Of a stretch of DNA of 64,000 nucleotides, positions 5,860 through 13,519 are shown in pieces. The notes under the pieces are model-generated. The model searched no databases, was not told the DNA's origin, and was given only the letters and a program-made list of their open reading frames with translations. This DNA comes from Chlorobiota bacterium (GTDB lineage: Bacteria > Bacteroidota > Bacteroidia > Bacteroidales > F082). Positions within the stretch are counted from its first letter, which is position 1, and every line of letters starts with the position of its first letter. The stretch is taken from positions 1 through 64,000 of the forward strand of contig JAUVKF010000001.1 of NCBI GenBank assembly GCA_030596395.1, in the 5' to 3' direction. The position numbers were made by a program, and so were the translations under genes.

Positions 5860-8754
5860 ATGCAAAAATTGCTGACTTTGCTTATTGTGCTGGCAATCGT
5901 CAGTACGCAACCGGCTTTTTCACAACACACAATTAAAGGCGAAAAAAGTAGGATCACTAAAGTAGCTACCATCCGTCTTACTGATTTACCCTAGGAAGAC
6001 CCTGATGATTCGCCCGTTTTCAAAGCTCCGAATAAGAATTGGGCTCCCCCGCAATGGGATATTGATGAAGATGAAGTAATTTACATGGAGCCGGAGGGAT
6101 TTCGTACAAATGCAATGCAATCAGTAAAAGAAGGTTCACCGGCACCTGATACAAGTTTTCACGGCCTGGAAGACAGCGGCAGTTCCATCCCCCCGGATGT
6201 GAATGGCGCTGCCGGACCTGATCATTTGATGATCACATTGAATACCCAGATCAGGATACAGGATAGAATGGGGAACAACCTGTTCACAACTACACTGAAT
6301 ACTTTTTGGACACCCATGCCGGGTAACGGAAGTTCTTTCGATCCGAAAATCATTTACGACCCCTATGAAGACAGATGGATAATTGTAACACCAAGCAGCT
6401 CATCCCTTATGCTATCAAAACTTTATGTTGCCGTAAGCGCAACATCTGATTCTTTAGGGGAATGGCATATGTTTTGGCTTGATCCCGATCCGCAGAACCA
6501 GACCTGGTTTGATTACCCAAGTTTTGGTTTTAACAAAAAATGGATTACAATAAGTGGAAATATGTTTGGTAATGACTATTACCGCACAGTTTTTGTGATT
6601 GATAAGATGGCTGCCTACAGCGGTGAAGAATCACCCGCTTATACCCGTTTTGCCACAACTCAGGGGTTTACACTTGTACCATCAATAACATACGACACCG
6701 CTGCTGAGGATATGTACCTGATTTCTACCGCAAATGGCAATTCTGGTGGAAACGGCTACATCAGGAAGTTTAAAATAAGTGGAGAGGTGAACAACCCGAT
6801 TTTTGAGTACGAGGGTGCAATTGGCGTACCTGAACCCTGGGATAATTATGCCGGCTATTACGGCAACTTTCTACCCCAACTGGGTTCCAGCGAATTGATC
6901 AATTCTGTTGATTCACGCATGGAAACTGTAATCTACAGGAATAATAAAATCTGGGCTGTCCATCATATTTTCCTGCCCGCAAACAATCCTCAGCGCACCG
7001 CCGTTCAATGGTGGGAGTTGGATACCGATGGAACAATCCTGCAAAGGGGAAGAATTGACGACCCGACTAACGTGTTTTCATTCGCTTTTCCAACCATCGC
7101 AGTTAATGCAAATGAGGATATCTTTATCGGGCATAATGTATTCTCAGCTATGCAATATGCCTCTTCCGGATATTCATTCAAAGCATATTATGATGATGAC
7201 AACACCATTCGCACTTATTTCCAGTATAAAGACGGTGAAAACCCATATTACAAAACATTTGGTGCCGGAAGAAACCGCTGGGGTGATTACTCTGCTACCT
7301 GTGTTGACCCTGTAAATGGTTATGATTTCTGGACATTACAGGAATACGCAGCATCACCTGAAAACAAATGGGGTACCTGGTGGGCAAATTTAAGGCCACC
7401 CTTCCCTCCTGAGGCTGAATTTACCTCCGATGAAGTGTTGATCCCAACGGGCGAAACAGTTGACTTTACTGATTTATCCGCAGGTGTTCCTTCGTCATGG
7501 GAATGGATGTTTGAGGGTGGAACGCCTGAAACATCCGACCAGCAAAACCCGCAGGGAATTCTATTTAGTGAAGAAGGTGCTTTTGACATTAAATTGATAG
7601 TTACCAACGAATTGGGTACAGATACGATTACAAAAACAGATTATATTACCACAAGTTCTTCGTTGTTACCCGTAATTGATTTTGAGGCTGATAAATCAAG
7701 TGTGTGCATTGGCGAGCCTGTTGCGTTTACGGATAAATCAAAATACAGTCCAAATCAGTGGGAGTGGCAATTTAACCCTTCTACCGTAACATTTGTTGAT
7801 GAAACTGACCAGAACAGTCAAAATCCGATAGTTATATTCGATGCAGCCGAATCGTATTCTTTAACACTAACCGTATGGAATTTGAATGGCTCAGTTGACA
7901 CCACAGCCTACGATGTAGTGGTGTCCGGAGGTTTTACTCCCTATTTCAAAGAGACTTTTGAAATAGAACAATTCAGCCTGAAATCATGGAGTGTAGAAAA
8001 TCCGGATGATGACATTACCTGGGAGCTTCATGAAATTGGCGGTACCGAACCGGGAAATATGGCAGCAGGCGTTAATTTTTCGGAATATTTTTACATCGGG
8101 AGAAGAGACCGGCTGATTTCTCCATCTTTCAATCTTACAGGTTTAAACAATGCTGCACTGGAATTTCAGCATGCCTATGCAAAACGCCATGACGAGATCA
8201 CCGACTCGTTGATCGTATATGTTTCTGGTGATTGCGGCGAAAACTGGGAGCGTGTATTTGCAAGTGGAGAAAATGGCAGCGGTAATTTTGCAACGCATGA
8301 GAAAACAGAGTCGTTCTGGCCCGAAAATGCCTCCGACTGGTGTGGATTGGGATATGGCGCTTCCTGTATTGTTATCAACCTTACTCCCTGGACCGGGCAG
8401 GCAGATGTACGCATTGCTTTTGAAACAGTGAGTGGTTACGGCAATCCACTGTTTATCGACAATGTACAAATCAGTCAGTATGTAGGTGTGGAAGAAAGTA
8501 ATATTGAAAATACCGGAATAAGTATTTATCCCAACCCGGCAAATGGTTCGTTCCATTTTGATATGAATGGAGATGATACCTGCAACGAACTAATAATTTT
8601 TAACCAGATGGGGCAAATCGTTCACCAGGTTAAACTGGGTAAGAATGATAAATCTATTGAAATCAGTTCAGCGGCTGATTGGAATCCTGGAATTTATTTT
8701 GTCAAGGTAAAAGGCGATCAGCATACAACAACGAAAAGGATAGTTATTTATTAA
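5860..8754 (+). pseudogene. T9SS cargo protein copy 2, interrupted by an in-frame TAG
   Basis: The reading frame begins with an ATG at 5860, 13 nt after copy 1 ends, and encodes a good signal peptide (MQKLLTLLIVLAIVSTQPAF). It is interrupted at codon 45 by TAG (5992-5994) and then stays open in the same frame to 8754. With the stop bridged it is 964 codons, matching copies 1 and 3 (966 each). The sequence after the stop (VFKAPNKNWAPPQW) aligns with copy 3 (KFKAPNPGWQIPEW), so it was once coding. From the next ATG (6085) an 889-residue product could be made but would lack a signal peptide and could not reach T9SS. Domains are as in copy 1: N-terminal module, two PKD domains, anchor-J-like domain, sorting domain ending KRIVIY. 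It is either a recent nonsense pseudogene, a readthrough gene, or a sequencing or assembly error; the rest of the frame shows no decay. Confidence 0.8.
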
Positions 8755-8764
8755 TCACCTGTAA

Positions 8765-8911
8765 TCAGTTTCATTATTGATATTGCGGTTGATTGATGAC
8801 AATATATTTGAACGCAAACTTGATTTTTCTTACAAAGAAAATGGTGTTTATTACATTAGGCTGCAAGCAGGTGAACAGGTAGCTACTGGGAAGATGGTAT
8901 TGATGAGGTAA
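8765..8911 (+). pseudogene. Remnant of a T9SS type A sorting domain
   Basis: In the 374-bp gap between cargo copies 2 and 3, one frame reads DDNIFERKLDFSYKENGVYY, then IRLQAGEQVATGKMVLMR and a TAA at 8909-8911. This has the spacing of the last strands of a type A sorting domain (hydrophobic strand, GVYYIRL, basic strand near the C-terminus). There is no start codon or upstream domain attached, so it is the tail of a lost protein. It differs from the sorting domains of the three flanking copies and so came from another cargo gene. Confidence 0.6.
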
Positions 8912-12051: not shown

Positions 12052-12777
12052 ATGAACCTTTTTTACACAACTGAAACACCGGGCGATTTCTTCACTCTTA
12101 ATAGTGAAGAATCAAAACATATCATCCGCGTTCTGAGAATGAAGTCAGGAGATTCAATCAGGTTCACCGATGGCAAAGGGTTTTTTTATGATTGTGAAAT
12201 CACCGACCCTAACCCGAAAGCTTGTCAGCTAAAACTTATTAAAAAGTCTGAAGGTTCTGACAAACGACCATTTCGGTTGCATATCGCAATTGCTCCAACA
12301 AAGAATATAAGCCGCTTTGAATGGTTTCTTGAAAAAGCGACTGAGATCGGTATTGACAGGATCACACCGATAATTTGCGATCATTCCGAACGAAAAGAAA
12401 TCAAAATCAACCGGCTTGAACGGGTCATCATTGCTGCGATGAAACAATCTTTAAAATCGAACCTGCCTGAACTCAACTATGCAAATAATTTCAGGGAATT
12501 TATCAATCAGCCTTTTTCCGGACAAAAGTTCATTGCATATATTGATGACGGTGTTAAACTGGAATTGTCAAAAACATACCAGCCAACTAAGAATGCTTTG
12601 GTATTAATTGGACCCGAAGGTGATTTTAGCCCGGATGAAGTACAACAAGCCATCAATCAAGGGTTTCAGCCAGTCAAACTGGGACCATCAAGGCTAAGAA
12701 CTGAAACCGCAGGGGTGGTTGCTTGCCATACGATTAACCTACTTTCACTGCTTCAAGCGTCTTCGCTTGAAGATTAG
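12052..12777 (+). CDS. rsmE: 16S rRNA (uracil-1498-N3)-methyltransferase
   Basis: RsmE methylates N3 of U1498 in 16S rRNA, using S-adenosylmethionine, in the decoding region of the 30S subunit. The protein (241 aa, the normal length) has the N-terminal PUA-like part (HIIRVLRMKSGDSIRFTDG, about residues 22-40) and the SPOUT knot at the C-terminus: IGPEGDFSPDEV (about 185-196) and LGPSRLRTETAGVVA (about 211-225), which form the SAM-binding trefoil. It lies 22 nt after a cargo gene. Its last codons run through a 9-bp palindrome (12751-12772), so the ASSLED tail is probably encoded by an inserted repeat and not part of the conserved fold. Confidence 0.93.
   Translation: MNLFYTTETPGDFFTLNSEESKHIIRVLRMKSGDSIRFTDGKGFFYDCEITDPNPKACQLKLIKKSEGSDKRPFRLHIAIAPTKNISRFEWFLEKATEIGIDRITPIICDHSERKEIKINRLERVIIAAMKQSLKSNLPELNYANNFREFINQPFSGQKFIAYIDDGVKLELSKTYQPTKNALVLIGPEGDFSPDEVQQAINQGFQPVKLGPSRLRTETAGVVACHTINLLSLLQASSLED
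12751..12772. repeat. Short palindrome inside the 3' end of rsmE
   Basis: CTTCAAGCG (12751-12759), a 4-nt loop (TCTT) and CGCTTGAAG (12764-12772) form a perfect 9-bp stem. It overlaps the last coding codons of rsmE; the TAG follows at 12775. A near-identical palindrome sits at the end of the methylthiotransferase gene at 44590-44613. Confidence 0.7.
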
Positions 12778-12852
12778 AATTAAACAGTTATGCAATCTAA
12801 AACATGGATGCTTTAAACGGGAATTCCAGCACCGCGTGAACCAAACTTCTTC

Positions 12853-12860
12853 TATTTTTG
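12853..12860 (+). promoter_or_regulatory. Possible -7 element (TATTTTTG)
   Basis: A TAnnTTTG match 9 nt before the ATG at 12869. If it is used, the transcript would be nearly leaderless. Chance occurrence is possible in this AT-rich DNA. Confidence 0.3.
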
Positions 12861-12868
12861 CATTCAAC

Positions 12869-13519
12869 ATGAAAAAATTATCGGTTATTCTTTTGTTGGT
12901 AATATTGGCTCTAAACTTAACAAGCCAGGAAGTCAAAATTGCCCTGCTCAAATATTCAGGTGGTGGCGACTGGTATGCAAACCCGACATCACTGCCTAAC
13001 CTAGTGAATTTCTGTAACCGAAACATAAACACAAATATTTCAACAGATATTGCTACTGTTGAAGCAGGCAGTATTGAACTGTTTAACTATCCGTTGCTGC
13101 ATATAACCGGTCATGGTAATGTGATCTTTAGCCCTGAAGAAGCTGAGAACTTACGTAAATATTTATTAGCCGGAGGTTTTCTTCATATATCTGATAATTA
13201 CGGAATGGACCAATATATCAGGCGCGAAATGCAAAAAGTTTTTCCCGGACAGGAATTTGTTGAACTTCCCTTTTCTCACCCGATTTATCACCAGAAATAT
13301 ACTTTTCCGGATGGCTTGCCTAAAGTGCATCAGCATGATAATAAAGACCCGCAAGGCTTTGGTATTATTTATGAAGGCCGGCTGGTTTGTTTTTACGATT
13401 ACGAATGCGACCTTGGCGATGGATGGGAGTCGCCCGAAGTACACCATGATTCCCAGGTAAAAAGGGATGAAGCCTTAAAAATGGGGGCCAATATTGTTCA
13501 ATTTGTATTTACGCAATAG
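12869..13519 (+). CDS. Secreted DUF4159-domain protein
   Basis: I place the start at the ATG at 12869 (216 aa). It begins the signal peptide MKKLSVILLLVILALNL, whereas the longer frame from 12719 would overlap rsmE and lack one. The mature part starts EVKIALLKYSGGGDWYANP and contains LLHITGHGNVIFSPEEAENL and an HISDNYGMD motif. These match the DUF4159 family, whose fold resembles class I glutamine amidotransferase-like modules. The role is not established; the family often sits with AAA ATPase and von Willebrand gene sets, but none is adjacent here. A promoter-like element lies just upstream, so the gene is probably expressed independently of rsmE. Confidence 0.8.
   Translation: MKKLSVILLLVILALNLTSQEVKIALLKYSGGGDWYANPTSLPNLVNFCNRNINTNISTDIATVEAGSIELFNYPLLHITGHGNVIFSPEEAENLRKYLLAGGFLHISDNYGMDQYIRREMQKVFPGQEFVELPFSHPIYHQKYTFPDGLPKVHQHDNKDPQGFGIIYEGRLVCFYDYECDLGDGWESPEVHHDSQVKRDEALKMGANIVQFVFTQ

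Follow-up and report, generated by a model that had tools for sequence, protein, structure and literature searches.

An in-frame amber stop, probably a recent nonsense substitution, in one of three T9SS cargo paralogues of a Bacteroidales draft genome

The cargo array and its interrupted gene

The stretch of DNA analysed here (64,000 nucleotides; the window) forms the beginning of contig C51 (153,064 bases) in a draft genome of 3,415,522 bases, 113 contigs and 94% completeness. Three paralogous T9SS cargo genes lie in a row on its forward strand (Table 1). Copies 1 and 3 each have an uninterrupted frame of 966 codons, and copy 2, the ATG of which sits 13 bases past the copy 1 stop, carries an in-frame TAG. 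Copy 2 shares 56-58% identity with copy 3 and 41-43% with copy 1. All three copies have PKD domains and a C-terminal T9SS sorting domain scoring above curated cut-offs; when copy 2 is read through its stop with X, PKD, PKD_4 and Por_Secre_tail are all above their cut-offs, with the sorting domain reaching 48.4 bits for TIGR04183 (cut-off 23) and 50.6 bits for PF18962 (cut-off 27). The genome also encodes SprA (no internal stop; 2560 bits to TIGR04189, covering positions 2-2318 of the 2319 in the profile) and has at least 150 T9SS sorting-domain matches, 150 of 194 first-look candidates having been scored. The sorting domain and SprA thus bear out the assignment of copy 2 as T9SS cargo made in an earlier, sequence-only reading of the locus, whereas its label of a 'giant' cargo is not apt for a gene of this length.

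Table 1. Features of the array (positions in the window) and genes or relics of the source genome with a single in-frame stop that were judged real (contig:position)
Feature	Position	Strand	Remarks
Copy 1, intact T9SS cargo paralogue, 966 aa	2946-5846	+	Open frame; PKD and Por_Secre_tail
Copy 2, T9SS cargo gene with stop at codon 45	5860-8754	+	964 codons; ends with TAA 8752-8754
Copy 2, part before the stop, 44 codons	5860-5991	+	Hydrophobic N-terminus MQKLLTLLIVLAIVSTQPAFSQ and start of variable linker
Copy 2, in-frame TAG	5992-5994	+	Codon 45 in the frame of ATG 5860
Copy 2, longest ATG-started frame past the stop, 889 aa	6085-8754	+	Open frame; without signal peptide
Short frame between copies 2 and 3	8802-8908		Similar to the tail of a further T9SS sorting domain
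Copy 3, intact T9SS cargo paralogue, 966 aa	9129-12029	+	Open frame; residues about 90-518 modelled as beta-propeller
RNA methyltransferase (PF04452, PF20260) and DUF4159 protein	12052-13519		After the array
Copy 2	C51:5992		TAG
Repeat-rich T9SS cargo frame	C27:23507		TAG
Short T9SS cargo	C24:434		TAG
Short sorting-domain relic	C51:79455		TAA
Transposase-like gene	C26:21803		TGA; Y1_Tnp 15.8, under cut-off 23

The TAG, which the full contig in the source-genome assembly shows as well, is confirmed to be in frame from the copy 2 ATG and to follow the apparent signal peptide, as had been claimed. The signal peptide was called by eye rather than by a predictor, and 29 other copy-2-type proteins have N-termini that align with the one containing it. 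The stop falls in a stretch of low conservation that links the signal peptide to the first conserved motif, ahead of every Pfam-named domain of copy 2. Beyond it lie 919 sense codons with zero further stops. Nine in-frame starts are listed in the first 150 codons past the stop, and at none of these did inspection by eye reveal a hydrophobic N-terminus. With the standard code, the TAG parts the Sec signal peptide of copy 2 from its sorting domain. Copy 2 resembles T9SS type A cargo in its N-terminal hydrophobic segment, its PKD domains and its Por_Secre_tail (PF18962 / TIGR04183), and in the presence of SprA, but differs in being interrupted upstream of all its Pfam-named domains. It derives from the T9SS cargo family, and its standard product would not be secreted whole.

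A structure model of copy 3, of middling confidence (pLDDT 73.5, pTM 0.55), has the beta-propeller followed by the Pfam PKD domains. Unlike known T9SS type A cargo, the propeller region is without a Pfam match (none at E 0.001) and is seen by the model only. The best Foldseek rows cover the whole copy 3 model poorly (TM to query 0.08-0.26). When the propeller region was compared within Foldseek's list, many propellers matched, the best being CylK (Z 24.8; 3.3 A over 334 residues, 10% identity), a likeness that says nothing on function, as a common fold shows none. The cargo proteins may act as surface-bound or released binding proteins.

The short frame between copies 2 and 3 matches PF18962 at E 0.019 and 15.7 bits, under the cut-off of 27, and is possibly a relic of a lost cargo gene. 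The RNA methyltransferase that follows the array is also found after cargo copies in three relatives (L141, L064 and L060), and the setting of the array is thus conserved. Matches to the promoter motif TANNTTTG are no commoner than chance (73 versus 79.8 expected), so we make no claim on the transcription unit.

Relatives of the array and the age of the stop

A search with read-through copy 2 covered 173 genomes of its taxonomic family, and 63 genomes have a match at E <=1e-60; the comparison collections hold one genome per species, and the rows considered are the best 150 of a longer list. Stops occur in 5 of these 150 rows. Three rows have a single stop, namely the TAG of copy 2 and a TAA in each of G047 and G064, at other places. 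The remaining two, in G011 and G180, have many stops arising from out-of-frame stretches, and recoding was rejected for them on that account. Among the best 53 rows (>1000 bits), 45 span residue 45, of which 43 are from other genomes, and none of the 43 has a stop; the other 8 start past residue 45 and are uninformative on the position of the TAG. In a viral contig collection, searching for a 45-base pattern in which the stop was replaced by N gave no match.

A tree of 47 copies resolves a single group for the copy-1 type (9 rows, copy 1 and 8 other proteins) and another for the copy-3 type (8 rows), the latter being nested among the 30 rows of the copy-2 type; the terminal branches of copies 1, 2 and 3 are 0.40, 0.40 and 0.37, respectively. 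The named records that match copy 3 are metagenome assemblies of Bacteroidales and other Bacteroidota. Five relatives (L136 to L140) have a larger T9SS protein, of 1212-1217 aa where complete and cut by the end of the stretch in L138, 12-31 bases upstream of the copy-2 orthologue, a place taken by copy 1 in the window. No strong match to it is present among the matches listed for the source genome, from which it may have been lost or in which it may not have been assembled. One copy-3-type relative (L059:1548-4492) is broken into two overlapping frames, 831 and 150 aa long, in what looks like a frameshift.

Conservation downstream of the stop was compared at columns invariant in all other copy-2/3-type proteins. 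Copy 2 departs from the invariant residue at 2 of 157 such columns, which places it 34th of 38 when counting upward; the intact copy 3 does so at 4 of 159, a value tied for the highest. When the conservation threshold is loosened, the rank of copy 2 is 28 of 38 at 95% and 25 of 38 at 90%. Copy 2 is therefore above the middle of the range spanned by intact copies, but still inside it. The 44 relatives in this comparison were picked as open frames and are stop-free by construction, such that the fair test for stop counts is the family search described above. For a neutral gene with the codon make-up of copy 2, three more stops are expected by about 0.025-0.029 substitutions per site; the lack of any stop in the 919 codons places neutral divergence since loss below approximately that value, or about 0.008 if indels occur at a tenth of the rate of substitutions, an assumed rate. 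The absence of a further stop, together with conservation within the intact range, implies that any neutral decay has been short, roughly less than 0.03 substitutions per site. The stop, if real, is either recent on a species scale or the protein is still made; the former is far likelier, since readthrough and recoding find no support in the analyses described below.

Other interrupted genes in the source genome

A coding-usage scan of 1,987,755 bases (58% of the genome) gave 35 candidate interruptions (21 TAA, 8 TAG and 6 TGA), which were sorted by eye. Many of these are adjacent genes that share a frame, and several short candidates were left undecided and uncounted. Five single-stop genes or relics, copy 2 included, were judged real (three TAG, one TAA and one TGA; Table 1), which reveals that a lone in-frame stop is not rare in this genome. 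The scan was not blind, in that its thresholds were loosened once the C24 case was known and contigs C24 and C27 were fetched for the cases that they hold.

Both of these cases, each a further TAG, come from inspecting 16 cargo tails chosen for their short open frames out of the 150 listed. In C27, a cargo frame of 1865 codons ends in the TAG and is followed by 317 codons with more repeats and a sorting domain (TIGR04183, 51.4 bits); the stop would, from the sequence, cut off the sorting signal. In C24, the TAG lies 75 codons past a likely ATG, with an N-terminal hydrophobic segment before it and PF18962 (42.7 bits) beyond it.

These two cases suggested an amber-only pattern, which was set aside in view of the TAA and TGA cases in the wider scan. 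By mutational opportunity, with transitions weighted 2, the expected shares are 0.325 for TAG, 0.451 for TAA and 0.224 for TGA, and three or more TAGs among five interrupted genes has P 0.20; there is no clear amber bias, five cases giving little power. Four of the five interruptions are in T9SS cargo genes or relics, which make up 12.6% of codons in the sampled frames (nominal P 0.001). This enrichment was likewise set aside as biased, because copy 2 was given at the outset and two others came from the targeted look at cargo tails.

Origin and meaning of the stop

The TAG of copy 2 is probably a single recent nonsense substitution that has left a null allele in a dispensable member of a T9SS cargo family. 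On this account, one substitution would have created the TAG, and translation would halt after 44 residues, giving only the signal peptide and a short tail; products of restart frames further on would be without a signal peptide and could not reach the secretion system, while the cell would retain copies 1 and 3 along with many other cargo proteins. We infer that the TAG base is real and that no whole copy 2 product is made. With a premature stop relative to intact homologues, copy 2 is a candidate nonsense pseudogene, any loss being too recent for relaxed constraint downstream to show either way, and it resembles the single-nonsense pseudogenes of draft genomes in having one stop, an otherwise intact sequence and intact relatives; we found no difference in kind between it and them. 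PMC8400371 mentions a Flavobacterium isolate with a gliding gene that carries a premature stop. No paper on the array of copies 1-3 was among those listed by the literature searches.

The ambiguity of cause, real loss versus assembly error, is also common to copy 2 and to the draft-genome pseudogenes described in PMC11017572, according to which many apparent bacterial pseudogenes are assembly errors. It is possible, albeit rather unlikely, that the TAG is a consensus error, a minority allele or the mark of a strain mixture, with most cells lacking it and copy 2 being intact in nature. The source genome is, after all, an incomplete draft in many contigs, copy 2 has no visible decay downstream of the stop, and other family members with a single stop come from fragmented drafts (G047, about 320 contigs; G064, about 520 contigs); out-of-frame stretches occur in G011 and G180. 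However, consensus substitution errors are usually rarer than real nonsense alleles, and the short relic further along the same contig looks like real decay. Of the alternatives raised in the sequence-only reading, recent loss and a wrong base are those that we retain; readthrough and a variable switch are without support.

Readthrough or recoding, with decoding of the amber codon as an amino acid efficient enough for the complete protein to be secreted, is very improbable. The conservation of the downstream sequence within the intact range is also expected if the protein is still made, and an in-frame TAG is present in two other cargo frames of the source genome; an early count of three TAGs in three cargo genes gave P 0.034 when the mutational share of TAG was taken as the expectation, but the interrupted set was then found to include TAA and TGA. 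In-frame stops in prokaryotes are reported in PMC7918605 to be widespread, with many being short-lived and some having signs of maintained coding. Copy 2 is like the readthrough candidates described there in having an in-frame TAG with conserved coding beyond it; the stop in the example given there is, however, shared between species, whereas that of copy 2 is absent from the 43 spanning matches in other genomes. The decoding machinery gives readthrough no support. None of the 36 tRNA genes found (Rfam tRNA search, with anticodons from ARAGORN) has a CTA anticodon, in an assembly that is 94% complete and with 150 of 242 first-look candidates scored, so that a missed gene is possible. A pattern search for such a tRNA gave 50 hits, compared with 113 for the reversed pattern, and no CTA tRNA was among the 50; hits in C92 and C5 are within tRNA-Arg (TCT) and tRNA-Leu (TAG), respectively, and one in C20 overlaps the end of tRNA-Arg (CCG). 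Two PF03462 class-I release-factor proteins are present and are read as RF1 and RF2, assigned without a specific model for either. TAG is in regular use as a terminator, ending 286 of the 1330 frames of at least 150 aa in the 1,987,755 bases (TAA 839, TGA 205). A readthrough structure was rejected, as the folding of three stretches of RNA, around the stop or past it, is no stronger than that of shuffled sequences (z 0.15, -0.70 and -0.30).

There is similarly very little chance that T9SS cargo genes are switched off by point nonsense under local selection, for example phage pressure, and later revert in the population as a form of standing surface diversification. The concentration of the real-judged interruptions in cargo genes or relics is in line with this proposal, subject to the bias in how the cases were met, and PMC11379459 proposes a model for gut Bacteroidales in which locally adaptive mutations arise and revert, with premature stops as an example and with the stop-adjacent codons TTA and TCA enriched in some B. 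fragilis gene categories. Nevertheless, a comparison of 104 cargo genes, chosen with a model from 20 sorting-domain places, with 1226 other frames, which may include some cargo genes, revealed no enrichment of stop-adjacent codons beyond controls: odds ratios were 1.10 for TTA, 0.99 for TCA, 0.70 for TCG, 0.91 for TTG, 1.13 for CAA, 1.20 for GAA, 1.02 for AAA and 1.03 for GGA, against 0.95-1.23 for control codons that are not stop-adjacent. Without this signature in cargo genes, repeated nonsense and reversion finds no support, and neither the same result nor the stop-free matches from other genomes lend any to the variable switch suggested earlier.

The overall results indicate that the copy 2 stop is an ordinary feature, and they counsel caution in that a single stop in a draft genome should not be read as regulation. 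Orthologues of all three cargo types in the array are present across the taxonomic family, and the preferred reading, recent nonsense loss of copy 2, suggests that a genome with at least 150 T9SS cargo genes readily tolerates losing one.
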